NCBI RefSeq assembly: GCF_011058315.1
Contig: NZ_CP049298.1
Location: 1,612,001 to 1,676,000, forward strand
Source of the DNA: Chryseobacterium sp. POL2
GTDB taxonomy: Bacteria; Bacteroidota; Bacteroidia; Flavobacteriales; Weeksellaceae
Direction of reading: 5' to 3'
DNA length: 64,000 bases
Below are positions 10,661 to 46,892 of this stretch, in pieces. Made by a program: the position numbers and the translations under genes. Every line of letters begins with the position of its first letter. Position 1 is the stretch's first letter. Below the pieces are notes generated by a model that saw only the letters and a list, made by a program, of their open reading frames with translations, was not told the DNA's origin and did not search any database.

Positions 10661-10673
10661 CAAAAAAATAAAA

Positions 10674-10974
10674 GAAGCGCTATAAGCCGGATTCTGTGCC
10701 CTCCCAAAAGAGGGTGCTTGTTATTTATCTGATTTGCAAATTACTCTGCAACTTTAGCTGCTTACCCCTCGCCAACGACCGAGCCGACCTTAACTGGCGA
10801 TATACTTAGCATTGCACCGCATAGAGTTTACCTGGTTTCACTACAGCCGAACTGTACCTGCTTTCTGTTGCACTTGTCCTACGCTCGCGCGTGACGGATG
10901 TTATCCGCTATGCTGCTCTGTGGTGTCCGGACTTTCCTAGCCTCCCGAAGGATTCTCAACAAGCCGCACTTCTT
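10674..10974 (-). ncRNA. rnpB: RNase P RNA (bacterial class A)
   Basis: The minus strand starts with GAAGTGCGGCTTGTTGAGAA, then carries the conserved CR-I block GAGGCTAGGAAAGTCCGGAC and ACCACAGAGCAG. The 3' part ends GAATCCGGCTTATAGCGCTT, containing the CR-V partner of the P4 pseudoknot and pairing back to the 5' end (GAAGTGC/GCGCTTC). Roughly 300 nt is short for a class A RNA. Ends are approximate to a few bases. This catalytic RNA removes tRNA 5' leaders. Confidence 0.93.
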
Positions 10975-11063
10975 TTATGCGCCAAAAGTATTACTTTTTA
11001 AGCTATATAAAAAAGTTTTTTATTCAATAAATTAATCACTGCTGTCAGCTTTTTTTAACAACA

Positions 11064-35576: not shown

Positions 35577-35579
35577 AAA

Positions 35580-35606
35580 AAACCGTTTCGAAATTCGAAA
35601 CGGTTT
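35580..35606. terminator. Bidirectional terminator
   Basis: The stem AAACCGTTTCG/CGAAACGGTTT with AAATT-type loop lies between the convergent methyltransferase and lipoprotein genes. Confidence 0.85.
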
Positions 35607-35627
35607 TCATTTACAAATAATTTTTAA

Positions 35628-35858
35628 TTATTTTGTAGCTTCTTTAACTTCAGCAGCAGCATCTTGTACTTTAGCAGCAGCAGAATCAACAGTTGCAGCA
35701 GCAGAATCAACTGTAGCAGCAGCAGAATCAACAGTTGCAGCAGCAGAGTCAACCATAGCAGCAGCAGAATCAGTGTTAGCAGCGTCTACGTTTTCAGTTT
35801 TTTTACAAGCTACAAGAGCAACAGCAGCGATAGCAGCTACAAATAATGACTTTTTCAT
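35628..35858 (-). CDS. Heptad-repeat lipoprotein A
   Basis: 76 residues: lipoprotein signal MKKSLFVAAIAAVALVAC, then KKTENVDAANT and about six copies of a seven-residue unit VDSAAAT, ending AAAEVKEATK. Alanines in the a/d-type positions predict a long amphipathic helix or coiled coil, like a small Lpp- or LEA-type envelope protein. A paralogue of the same design is encoded 2 kb away (37894-38109), and the two promoters are near copies of each other. The function is unknown. Confidence 0.8.
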   Translation of the reverse strand: MKKSLFVAAIAAVALVACKKTENVDAANTDSAAAMVDSAAATVDSAAATVDSAAATVDSAAAKVQDAAAEVKEATK

Positions 35859-35905
35859 AATAAATTAAATTTAATTTTGTTTGTTATTTTAAATGAATTC
35901 TTTTC

Positions 35906-35998
35906 TGTTCTTTCAATTTGAACAGGACAAAGGTATGGTGAGAAAAATATTTGTGTTAGAAAATTAATTGTAATATCTTTGTAAAATAGTTTTACAAA
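35906..35998. promoter_or_regulatory. Double-palindrome promoter module of lipoprotein A
   Basis: Palindrome 1 (TGTTC-N9-GAACA, 35906-35924) lies 3 bp downstream of the minus-strand -7 box TACCTTTG (35928-35935), so it covers the start of transcription. Palindrome 2 (TTTGTAAAA-N3-TTTTACAAA, 35978-35998) lies 53 bp further upstream. A plus-strand -7 box TATCTTTG for the divergent gene is at 35974-35981. The same layout recurs at 38152-38243. Confidence 0.7.
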
Positions 35999-36040
35999 TA
36001 AACATTACTGTAATACAGGTAATTATAAATTTTTCAAATA

Positions 36041-37219
36041 TTGGACAATTTAGAAATTTTATACTTTGAACAGCTAAAAAAGGAGGTAGAAACTAAGTAT
36101 TTAGAAAATCACACCCCTTCTCAAGCTGATATTAGCAAATGGAAAGGAATAGATATTATCTACTTCCAAGAAGATTTGCGAAAATATGCTAAAGGCAACA
36201 TCAGCGAAAAATCTTTTTACACTTACTTCAAAACGGCTCCTGTAAAGAAATTGCCGAGAATTGACATGCTAAATTTGTTATCAAATTACGCAGGTTATGA
36301 ATCTTGGTTTAATTATAAAAAATTAAAACCTATTGAACTTCCTAAAGAATCTATCCAACAAGAAGTTATTTTTGAGGAAAAGGCTCTAGTAAATGATAAT
36401 ACATCTACGGAACAGGACTTACCTCTAACAAATTCTATAGAAAATACAGTTCCAAAAATATTAAATACTTTAGAACCTGAAGCCGAACAAGAACAACTAA
36501 TCTCAATAGAAAAAAAGGACATTCTAAAAGAAGAAATAAATAATATTTTACAAATAAACAGCACTGATAATCAAACAACAAAAGAAAAAAAACAGATTAA
36601 CAACTCTAATTTTTTTAAAAGAAATATCTGGTATTTGATAACCAGTGTATTAAGTCTTTTAATTTTATTTTTAATTTTTAGAGATCAATGGTTAATTAAT
36701 GATTTTACGTATAGCTTTATCGATTCGGATAGAAACACCTTAATTAAAGACGAATTGGATGTTAAAATCTTAAATGAAAACGAATCTCCAATTCTCATTC
36801 GTGTTAAGCCGAATGAACCTTTTAGATACAGCACCAAAAGTAAAACTTTAACCATGATTGTATCGTCGCCATTTTACAAAACAGATACAATAAAACGCAA
36901 TCTAGAAACAGCACCAAGCAACGAAAATATTGAACTAAAACCGAATGATTACGCCATTCTGTTGTACTATTATTCTCGTTCTATTAAAGATTTCAAAAAG
37001 AAAAGAGAGCAACTCAATCAATTAATTAGTGATAACGCTCAAATAACCCAGGTTTATGACAACGAAACATATGGCGTAGAGCGACTTGACAAACAAAAAT
37101 ACATTAGCCTTGTAACCTTACCAACAACTGCTTTGGAAAACCTGAATGTGATTGACACACAGATGAAAAATGGAAAAATTGTACTTATCCGCTTTAAAAT
37201 TTCTACCAATGAAAAGTAA
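36041..37219 (+). CDS. Single-pass membrane protein of unknown function, probable TTG start
   Basis: 392 residues if started at TTG (36041); no ATG occurs before 36264, and the residues between fit the fold well. The N-terminal 95 residues (SQADISKWKGIDIIYFQEDLRKYAKGNISEKSFYTYFKT) look like a helical domain found in several Bacteroidota signalling proteins. One transmembrane helix follows at about residues 200-217 (IWYLITSVLSLLILFLIF), then a periplasmic beta-rich domain. No family is recognised. It overlaps the next gene by 11 nt. Confidence 0.7.
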   Translation: MDNLEILYFEQLKKEVETKYLENHTPSQADISKWKGIDIIYFQEDLRKYAKGNISEKSFYTYFKTAPVKKLPRIDMLNLLSNYAGYESWFNYKKLKPIELPKESIQQEVIFEEKALVNDNTSTEQDLPLTNSIENTVPKILNTLEPEAEQEQLISIEKKDILKEEINNILQINSTDNQTTKEKKQINNSNFFKRNIWYLITSVLSLLILFLIFRDQWLINDFTYSFIDSDRNTLIKDELDVKILNENESPILIRVKPNEPFRYSTKSKTLTMIVSSPFYKTDTIKRNLETAPSNENIELKPNDYAILLYYYSRSIKDFKKKREQLNQLISDNAQITQVYDNETYGVERLDKQKYISLVTLPTTALENLNVIDTQMKNGKIVLIRFKISTNEK

Positions 37220-37838
37220 ACTACTACACGGATTATTCGTTGCAATTGCAATAGTTTCTATGGCGTCTTGTAACAAAAAATACGAAGGCGACACGACTAT
37301 CAACGATGTTAAATATAAAAATAACCGCAATACTATCCCTTCCATAAAAATGGATAGTGCACAAGCGATTAACACCATTACAAAGCAAAAGATACAAGAT
37401 CTCTTGGATCTTTCCACGCTTTATATCTCAGGAAATAAGGACACTGAAATAGATTCTGTAATCTATGCACAAATGCAAAGTTACTTTTTGAAGCCCGATT
37501 CCTTGCAATTGAAACCTCTTTTCAAAGATCTGGATAGTCTAAAAGTACGCTACGCCAACATCAACAAATTAAGCATTCAGCGGCAAATAGTTGGCAAAGA
37601 CACTTTTGACATTGCAAAATTCAATGTTGAGTATTTTAATAATAAAAAATTATTCATAGGAAGTTACGAACGTGACGCACAATATGTCTTAAAATCGGTT
37701 CCCACAAAAGCAAATAACGAATTTAAGTTCTATTTCAAGAATTTTTATGATGAATTGAATAAAAAAGAAGATAGCATAAAAACGATTATCATACCACCAA
37801 CAACAACAAATTTACCTAAAGCATCTTCTGGAAAATAA
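37209..37838 (+). CDS. Lipoprotein of unknown function
   Basis: The start at ATG 37209 gives a normal lipoprotein signal (MKSKLLHGLFVAIAIVSMASC, lipobox MASC); 209 residues. The frame is open 13 codons earlier but that would bury the signal. The mature part is helical and lysine/asparagine rich. It overlaps the membrane-protein gene and must be co-expressed; the two may form an envelope complex. A strong terminator follows. Confidence 0.72.
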   Translation: MKSKLLHGLFVAIAIVSMASCNKKYEGDTTINDVKYKNNRNTIPSIKMDSAQAINTITKQKIQDLLDLSTLYISGNKDTEIDSVIYAQMQSYFLKPDSLQLKPLFKDLDSLKVRYANINKLSIQRQIVGKDTFDIAKFNVEYFNNKKLFIGSYERDAQYVLKSVPTKANNEFKFYFKNFYDELNKKEDSIKTIIIPPTTTNLPKASSGK

Positions 37839-37843
37839 AACAA

Positions 37844-37870
37844 TAAAGCCACCGAGACTCGGTGGCTTTA
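37844..37870. terminator. Bidirectional terminator
   Basis: The 13-bp stem TAAAGCCACCGAG/CTCGGTGGCTTTA with a one-base loop lies between convergent genes. T and A runs flank both sides. Confidence 0.92.
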
Positions 37871-37893
37871 TTTAATAATTTAGTTTCGGATGA

Positions 37894-38109
37894 TTATTTA
37901 ACCGCCTCAACAGCTTCTTTAACTTCAGTTTTTACAGAGTCAACTTTCGCCTGAACCGAATCAACTTTTGCAACAGCAGTATCAACTTCTTTAGATAAAG
38001 AATCCATATCTGTAGCTACTGAATCAACTTTTGTATCAACTGTTTCTGCTTTCTTACAAGATACTACTGCTAATGAAGCGATAGCTACTGCGAAAAATAC
38101 TTTTTTCAT
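37894..38109 (-). CDS. Heptad-repeat lipoprotein B
   Basis: 71 residues: signal MKKVFFAVAIASLAVVSC and a mature helix of repeating VDSV, VDTA and KVDSVQAKVDSVKTEV units in seven-residue steps, ending EAVEAVK. It is the same size and plan as lipoprotein A (signal, KKaEtVD, heptads, VKEA tail), with Val/Asp/Ser replacing Ala-rich units. The two flank the membrane-protein/lipoprotein pair and share their promoter layout. The function is unknown. Confidence 0.8.
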   Translation of the reverse strand: MKKVFFAVAIASLAVVSCKKAETVDTKVDSVATDMDSLSKEVDTAVAKVDSVQAKVDSVKTEVKEAVEAVK

Positions 38110-38151
38110 AATAAATGGTTTTTTAATTATTAATATATAAAATCTGTGTTT

Positions 38152-38243
38152 CGTTCTTTCATTTTGAACATTCCAAATTTATAACACTAAAAACTATGAA
38201 TAAAATAATTCGCTTGTAATGTTTTTGTAATCTATTTTACAAA
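38152..38243 (-). promoter_or_regulatory. Double-palindrome promoter module of lipoprotein B
   Basis: Palindrome 1 (CGTTCTTTCATTTTGAACA, 38152-38170) differs from the copy upstream of lipoprotein A at 2 of 19 positions. It is again 3 bp from a -7 box (TAAATTTG on the minus strand, 38174-38181). Palindrome 2 (TTTGTAA-N6-TTACAAA, 38224-38243) starts 54 nt beyond the end of palindrome 1, exactly as in the other copy. Confidence 0.7.
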
Positions 38244-46449: not shown

Positions 46450-46845
46450 GGGGTTGACTGGTTTCGACAGCAAGACCAATGCATAAGTAAGCATGCAGAG
46501 AACCGTAGCGCGATCTCTTAAATCCCTTGCTACAAATTTTTAACTGGCAACGAAGAGTTCGCTCTTGCAGCTTAATCCGAAGTTTAGTAGGCACAAGCGC
46601 TTTCCCGAAGATAGTAAGGAAGCAAGATGTCTCGCCATCGCTCTGTTCTGCGGCGTTGGATTTTGGGGCATAGGAATGCAGAAATAAGGTTTTGGGCACT
46701 TTGACCAAAGCTCGAAAATTTTAGAAGATAAGCTCAAAGTTGGCGGTCTGTTGTCTGCTTTGGGTCGAAAACCAATAACAGAATAAGCATGTAGAAAGCC
46801 TATGTATTGCTTGTTTGGACGAGGGTTCGAATCCCTCCAACTCCA
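46450..46845 (+). ncRNA. ssrA: Transfer-messenger RNA (tmRNA), tag GNEEFALAA
   Basis: The 5' end GGGGTTGACTGGTTTCGACAG pairs with 3' CAACTCC, and the T arm GGGTTCGAATCCC is intact. The resume codon GGC at 46546 opens the tag ORF Gly-Asn-Glu-Glu-Phe-Ala-Leu-Ala-Ala, closed by TAA at 46573-46575. The ALAA end is the standard protease signal. It rescues ribosomes stalled on broken mRNA together with SmpB. Its 3' end is a common target of integrating elements, and the accessory island starts right after it. Confidence 0.95.
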
Positions 46846-46892
46846 CAATCGCACCTGTAAATCAATGATTTACGAAAATTACACCCAAAATT

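Follow-up and report, generated by a model that had tools for sequence, protein, structure and literature searches.

A candidate operator array for a putative membrane-anchored regulator and a predicted 5'-terminal mRNA hairpin at a lipoprotein locus of Chryseobacterium sp. POL2

Two small lipoprotein genes of Chryseobacterium sp. POL2, lip1 and lip2, carry the same arrangement of two palindromes at their promoters, which raises the question of what reads each of them. A first-pass annotation had taken this to imply a shared regulator at the start site together with one farther upstream or, alternatively, a conserved hairpin at the 5' end of the transcript. The window analysed here is a stretch of 64,000 nucleotides (contig NZ_CP049298.1, positions 1,612,001 to 1,676,000) from a 3.24-Mb single-contig genome, and what we say about the genome as a whole is based on pattern searches and a 464-kb sample. 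We consider it likely that the whole module combines an operator array for a local membrane-anchored one-component regulator with a 5'-terminal mRNA stem-loop. Among the GTDB contigs, the closest named relative is Soonwooa buanensis; next come Chryseobacterium, Kaistella, Elizabethkingia, Riemerella and Bergeyella, which places the genome in the family Weeksellaceae.

The lip locus and its promoters

The paralogous genes lip1 and lip2 flank a putative regulator gene, ORF392, and a second lipoprotein gene, ORF222, which runs in the same direction as ORF392 and overlaps its end by 11 nt (Table 1). Profile searches revealed that Lip1 and Lip2 resemble PG1828-family and Lpp-type lipoproteins, with a weak similarity to Lpp; yet both stay below the curated cut-off of 50 of the NCBIfam profile PG1828_fam_lipo (NF050142), with 45.5 bits for lip1 and 38.2 bits for lip2. 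Orthologues of ORF392 and ORF222 are present in 191 and 190 of the 197 family genomes, respectively, and most Weeksellaceae loci have a lip1 orthologue. In nearly all loci inspected, a small exported gene overlaps or adjoins the regulator gene. Nearly all ORF392 orthologues across Weeksellaceae start with TTG (36041-36043 here), rarely with GTG, and this conserved start suggests selection for low expression. Strong inverted repeats at 35579-35607 and 37833-37881 lie between convergent gene ends and are probable bidirectional terminators.

Compared with Bacteroidota sigma-A promoters, lip1 and lip2 each have a TAnnTTTG -7 box, and ORF392 has a full -33/-7 promoter. A TTG near -33 is absent from 46 of 48 lip1 promoters and present in the other two; on the ORF392 strand, 44 of the 48 lip1 arrays keep TTG-N19-21-TANNTTTG, which is the -33/-7 of ORF392 itself. 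In Flavobacterium psychrophilum, the TAnnTTTG box was measured at -12 to -5 (PMC9723704). Transferring this rule, we place the +1 of both lip1 and lip2 at the G of GTTC, and that of ORF392 at about 35986.

Table 1. Genes and predicted elements of the lip locus (window coordinates)
Feature	Position	Strand	Description
lip1	35628..35858	-	ORF; 76-aa Ala/Asp/Ser-repeat lipoprotein (MKKSLFVAAIAAVALVAC|KK)
lip2	37894..38109	-	71-aa lipoprotein, paralogue of lip1
ORF392	36041..37219	+	putative membrane-anchored regulator, between lip1 and lip2; TTG start
ORF222	37209..37838	+	lipoprotein, start MKSKLL at 37209; putative co-component
lip1 5'-terminal RNA stem-loop (predicted)	35905..35925	-	CTGTTC-N9-GAACAG; predicted +1 at 35923
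-7 box of lip1	35928..35935	-	TACCTTTG; no TTG at -33
ORF392 core promoter	35951..35981	+	TTG (35951-35953)-N20-TATCTTTG (35974-35981), embedded in array
Box 3 of lip1 array (putative operator)	35968..35973	-	TTACAA; about -50 to -45 of lip1
Box 2 of lip1 array (putative operator)	35979..35984	-	TTACAA; 11 bp from box 3; overlaps -7 box of divergent ORF392 promoter
Box 1 of lip1 array (putative operator)	35992..35997	-	TTGTAA; inverted relative to box 2
lip2 5'-terminal RNA stem-loop (predicted)	38152..38170	-	TGTTC-N9-GAACG; predicted +1 at 38169
-7 box of lip2	38174..38181	-	TAAATTTG
lip2 array (putative operator)	38214..38242	-	boxes 38214-38219, 38225-38230, 38237-38242; without divergent promoter

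The upstream three-box array

The far palindrome TTTGTAA..TTACAAA starts exactly 54 nt beyond the start-site palindrome in both copies, as described in the first-pass annotation. The two modules were also said to align without gaps; this alignment breaks at the far arm of the far palindrome, which spans 21 bp at lip1 (35978-35998) and 20 bp at lip2 (38224-38243), where 7 and 6 nt, respectively, separate boxes 1 and 2. Further inspection revealed that the palindrome is part of a larger array, of which a third box, TTACAA, had been missed; it lies nearer the promoter at a fixed 11-bp period. Read in the direction of the lipoprotein genes, the array is TTGTAA-N6-8-TTACAA-N5-TTACAA. The gap between boxes 2 and 3 is 5 in 67 of 67 promoters, and the distance from box 3 to the -7 box is either 32 nt (55 promoters) or 33 nt (12 promoters).

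In the 3.24-Mb genome, the exact three-box pattern has two matches, the lip1 and lip2 promoters, and the reversed control pattern has none, which excludes chance as the source of the array. The exact array is present in 163 of the 197 family genomes; the loci that we read typically have one array where only lip1 exists and two where lip1 is accompanied by lip2. Among the matches listed, few lie away from the locus, a number similar to what the reversed control pattern gives (some 15 in 197 genomes). Among 80 named Weeksellaceae loci, which were retrieved separately but overlap the 197-genome set, 78 carry the array at the same 32-33 nt from the -7 box, 76 of them at 32; of the two loci that lack it, one (L184) is truncated by a contig edge. 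In genera g18 (L094, L096 and L097) and g25 (L091, L095 and L098), ORF392 is kept and the neighbouring array has diverged, split or moved farther off, and in the three g25 loci the divergent exported gene was not found.

The lip2 promoters retain the boxes although no divergent gene exists there, so that conservation of the boxes can be separated from conservation of a promoter. Poorly conserved palindromes amid well-conserved surroundings, which would have spoken against a site, are not what the upstream element presents: lip2 shares boxes, -7 box and spacing with lip1. Altogether, the upstream array is almost certainly a protein site. In the lip2 promoters of genus g7 (for example L022, L025 and L032), a block TTTTTGTCAGACNGTNCTA between the array and the -7 box is also strongly conserved, possibly through shared ancestry alone.

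The start-site element

Read on the minus strand, the start-site palindromes are TGTTCAAATTGAAAGAACA at lip1 (35906-35924) and TGTTCAAAATGAAAGAACG at lip2 (38152-38170). It was correctly noted before that 17 of the 19 bases are alike and that each palindrome lies 3 nt 3' of the -7 box; the lip2 copy ends in GAACG and therefore lacks a Watson-Crick match at its outermost pair. The stem recurs from genus to genus, around a loop of 3 to 24 nt. The arms co-vary in pairs, namely TGTTC/GAACA, TGTTGA/TCAACA (L090), TGTTGAA/TTCAACA (L043) and TGTCGAAA/TTTCGATA (L050), and likewise TGTCTTA/TAAGGCG (L004), TAATTAT/ATAATTA and TTAATAT/ATATTAA in lip2 genes. The stems also contain G-U pairs (GTTC..GGAC).

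A stem score of at least 10 was reached by 91% of lip1 and 85% of lip2 starts; in shuffles the proportion was 22-27%, and among 29 other promoters of the same genome it was 24%. Folding energies likewise set the lip starts apart from both controls, with a mean for lip1 of -3.8 versus -1.0 kcal/mol. In a partner-swap test with 22 distinct 5' arms, the observed pairing was reached in 7 of 5000 permutations; with lip1 alone it was reached in 36 of 5000, and with lip2 alone in 1756 of 5000, which is not significant. The hairpin is not obligatory: some lip2 genes (L010, L012) have a weak one or none, and genera g14 and g8 possess the array and no evident hairpin.

The variable loop and the compensated arms, neither of which is predicted by a dimer-binding DNA site, indicate that the start-site element is very likely a 5'-terminal RNA hairpin rather than a DNA operator. 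A reading in which both palindromes are operators, one at the start site and one upstream, could draw on the lip1 copy, where TGTTC..GAACA forms a perfect dyad on the start site. However, the arm spacing of 3 to 24 nt conflicts with the near-fixed spacing that a protein dimer needs, and the arms vary from gene to gene and from genus to genus while still pairing, G-U pairs included; we regard the two-operator arrangement as improbable, and loop length and compensated changes led us to discard the start-site palindrome as a DNA operator. The shared regulator of the first-pass annotation is accordingly retained for the upstream site, with ORF392, between the targets, as its probable gene, and given up for the start site, where the alternative of a conserved 5'-end hairpin fits the data.

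RppH and RNase E require single-stranded 5' ends, and 5' stem-loops stabilise E. coli mRNAs (PMC3997798). On both grounds, we lean towards a role of the hairpin in stabilising the lipoprotein mRNAs: both would begin at or within one nucleotide of the hairpin (GUUC..GAAC), which would most likely block 5'-end-dependent decay. Lip1 and Lip2 are presumably abundant proteins. The E. coli ompA and papA mRNAs similarly have a hairpin within about a nucleotide of the 5' end of an envelope-protein mRNA, and the lip mRNAs have theirs at the extreme 5' end if the start is placed according to PMC9723704. Compared to ompA and papA, the lip hairpins belong to a different phylum and differ in sequence. Little work has been done on leader function in Bacteroidota, for which the lip hairpins provide a comparative example of a 5'-terminal mRNA hairpin.

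Other assignments of the element were rejected as well: a general promoter feature, as the 29 other promoters of the genome, a small sample, stay at shuffle level, and a terminator or attenuator, as no T run follows the stem. The motif GTTCAAA after a -7 box has 25 matches in 10 genomes, which are mostly scattered singletons apart from the lip promoters. Searches for known RNA families across the window returned only RNase P, tmRNA and tRNAs; the RNase P RNA gene (10667-10975, minus strand) and the tmRNA gene (46450-46848, plus strand) are ordinary.

The putative regulator ORF392 and its homologues

ORF392 is predicted to comprise an XRE-like helical domain (residues 1-95), a disordered linker, a transmembrane helix (about residues 191-217) and a periplasmic β domain that resembles transthyretin or CarboxypepD-reg-like domains. 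In the AlphaFold2 model, residues 1-100 form five helices with a pLDDT of 90, and the helix of residues 191-217 corresponds to the transmembrane region expected of transmembrane transcription regulators (TTRs). Nearly all family members scanned have one strongly hydrophobic 19-residue segment after the N-domain, and their C-terminal part usually ends in a motif like GKIVKLKF. Neither the DNA-binding profiles of Pfam and NCBIfam nor a sequence comparison of the N-domain against PDB chains gave a credible match, and no profile library that we used names the protein. Structural similarity search of the N-domain using Foldseek returned nothing significant (E of at least 3.5). A second structural aligner ranked the XRE controller protein C.Esp1396I first, with a Z of 5.5, and most other rows were XRE repressors; according to the aligner's own note, such values may reflect merely a common arrangement. 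We therefore treat the XRE fold of the N-domain as a lead supported by the linkage to DNA, not as proof.

ORF392 is laid out like the TTRs and co-component systems ToxR/ToxS, TcpP/TcpH, VtrA/VtrC and CadC: in one protein, a putative DNA-binding domain in the cytoplasm is joined to a periplasmic domain by a single transmembrane helix. As in systems of the ToxR/ToxS type, a small exported protein is encoded directly downstream (ORF222), and the predicted regulon is short and local. The ToxR-type domains are OmpR-type winged helices; in contrast, the N-domain of ORF392 matches no Pfam DNA-binding family and looks XRE-like, and the partner in the ORF392 family is a lipoprotein or a secreted protein. 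The XRE controllers and repressors, including C.Esp1396I, SinR, DdrO and TP901-1 CI, have a five-helix domain like the one modelled for ORF392 and are its best structural neighbours, and C-proteins also act at their own promoter. ORF392 differs from them in its weak similarity (Z about 5.5), the missing profile match, the membrane anchor and the arrays of TTGTAA boxes. A published census of TTRs found its members by Pfam DNA-binding profiles (PMC10269533), and such a census would probably miss the ORF392 family.

Two further families of the order, f3 and f6, have the N-domain as well, in proteins of the same layout with one hydrophobic segment. Upstream of 20 homologues from outside the family, the most enriched 6-mers include TTGTAA/TTACAA, with 54 occurrences against an expected 9.6, together with words that overlap it; the 11-bp box repeat precedes 16 of the 20, compared to none in 60 shuffle sets. 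Whole-genome pattern searches of 12 f6 genomes gave 11 matches, and those of 11 genomes from f3, g8 and g16 gave 8; compared by coordinates, all 19 lie within about 100 nt upstream of an ORF392 homologue. These patterns were written after the loci had been seen, so what counts is that the same genomes have no matches elsewhere. As the species are related, the counts are not independent trials, and it is the pattern seen in three families, not any one count, that carries the argument. The divergent exported gene varies with the clade, from Lpp-like lipoproteins in Weeksellaceae to a DUF4349 protein (L130), a vWA/YfbK lipoprotein (L131) and a SIMPL-type secreted protein (L149), and the regulator, the array and the small exported downstream gene persist across the f3 and f6 loci L130-L149 despite this change. 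Because regulator and array stay together while the target gene changes, the simplest interpretation is a regulator-operator pair. The array most likely serves the ORF392 family as its operator, and it is quite likely, judging from sequence comparison, that this family is what binds it.

Transmembrane one-component regulators with co-encoded partners and 5'-terminal hairpins are kinds of system already known. Neither the family libraries that we used nor our search of open-licence papers yielded the ORF392 family, its domain or its operator. There is about an even chance that ORF392 is the founding member of a hitherto undescribed family of membrane-anchored regulators spread across several Flavobacteriales families, which, with its own DNA-binding domain, TTGTAA arrays and a co-encoded exported partner, senses the envelope and adjusts swappable exported envelope proteins. 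Such a family would constitute a switch for lipoprotein and envelope homeostasis in this group of Flavobacteriales. The papers found say little about how Weeksellaceae (Chryseobacterium, Elizabethkingia, Riemerella and relatives) regulate their abundant surface lipoproteins; ORF392 and its array provide a concrete and testable regulator-operator pair, and one type of regulator and operator facing four kinds of envelope target amounts to a natural experiment.

We propose that ORF392, anchored in the membrane, would use its XRE-like domain on the cytoplasmic side to bind the TTGTAA/TTACAA boxes. In the lip1 and lip2 promoters, these boxes lie at about -45 to -75, next to a good -7 box that has no TTG at -33; activation of both genes upon binding is therefore the most likely effect, one we hold to be rather probable with its direction read from geometry only. 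At its own promoter, where box 3 falls within the spacer and box 2 on the -7 box, ORF392 would most likely limit its own synthesis by covering the -7 box; this autorepression, again read from geometry only, deserves the same degree of trust. The opposite direction, repression of the lipoproteins by ORF392, is conceivable too. The periplasmic domain, perhaps together with the co-encoded ORF222, would sense the state of the envelope and thereby adjust lipoprotein production.

Three further explanations of the upstream element and its neighbour were weighed. The palindrome TTTGTAA..TTACAAA overlaps the start region of ORF392 and its loop varies by 1-2 nt, as would suit an RNA hairpin of the divergent ORF392 transcript; but with a +1 at about 35986 the left arm is not transcribed, and lip2 has the same array without a divergent promoter, which makes this the most improbable of the explanations considered. 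ORF392 resembles RodZ in its layout, with a helical HTH-like domain in the cytoplasm joined by one transmembrane helix to a periplasmic β domain, and might be a structural protein whose helical domain binds protein rather than DNA, the array being regulatory otherwise. Against this stand its strict one-to-one association with a DNA array and the outcome of the profile search, in which none of 39 ORF392 orthologues matched the RodZ/HTH_25 Pfam profile; we regard a RodZ-like role as improbable. Direct repeats of 11 bp are typical of winged-helix response regulators, and the array contains such a repeat beside a protein without a recognised DNA-binding profile, so binding by another global factor, for example of the OmpR/PhoB type, with ORF392 as a mere neighbour, is unlikely without being far-fetched. 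A global factor sits poorly with the small number of sites, just one or two in a genome and almost all beside ORF392, and with a pairing of regulator and array that outlasts changes of the divergent gene in other families. Where a genome has two homologues it also has two arrays: in G394, the homologues on contigs C72 and C83 are each preceded by an array of their own.
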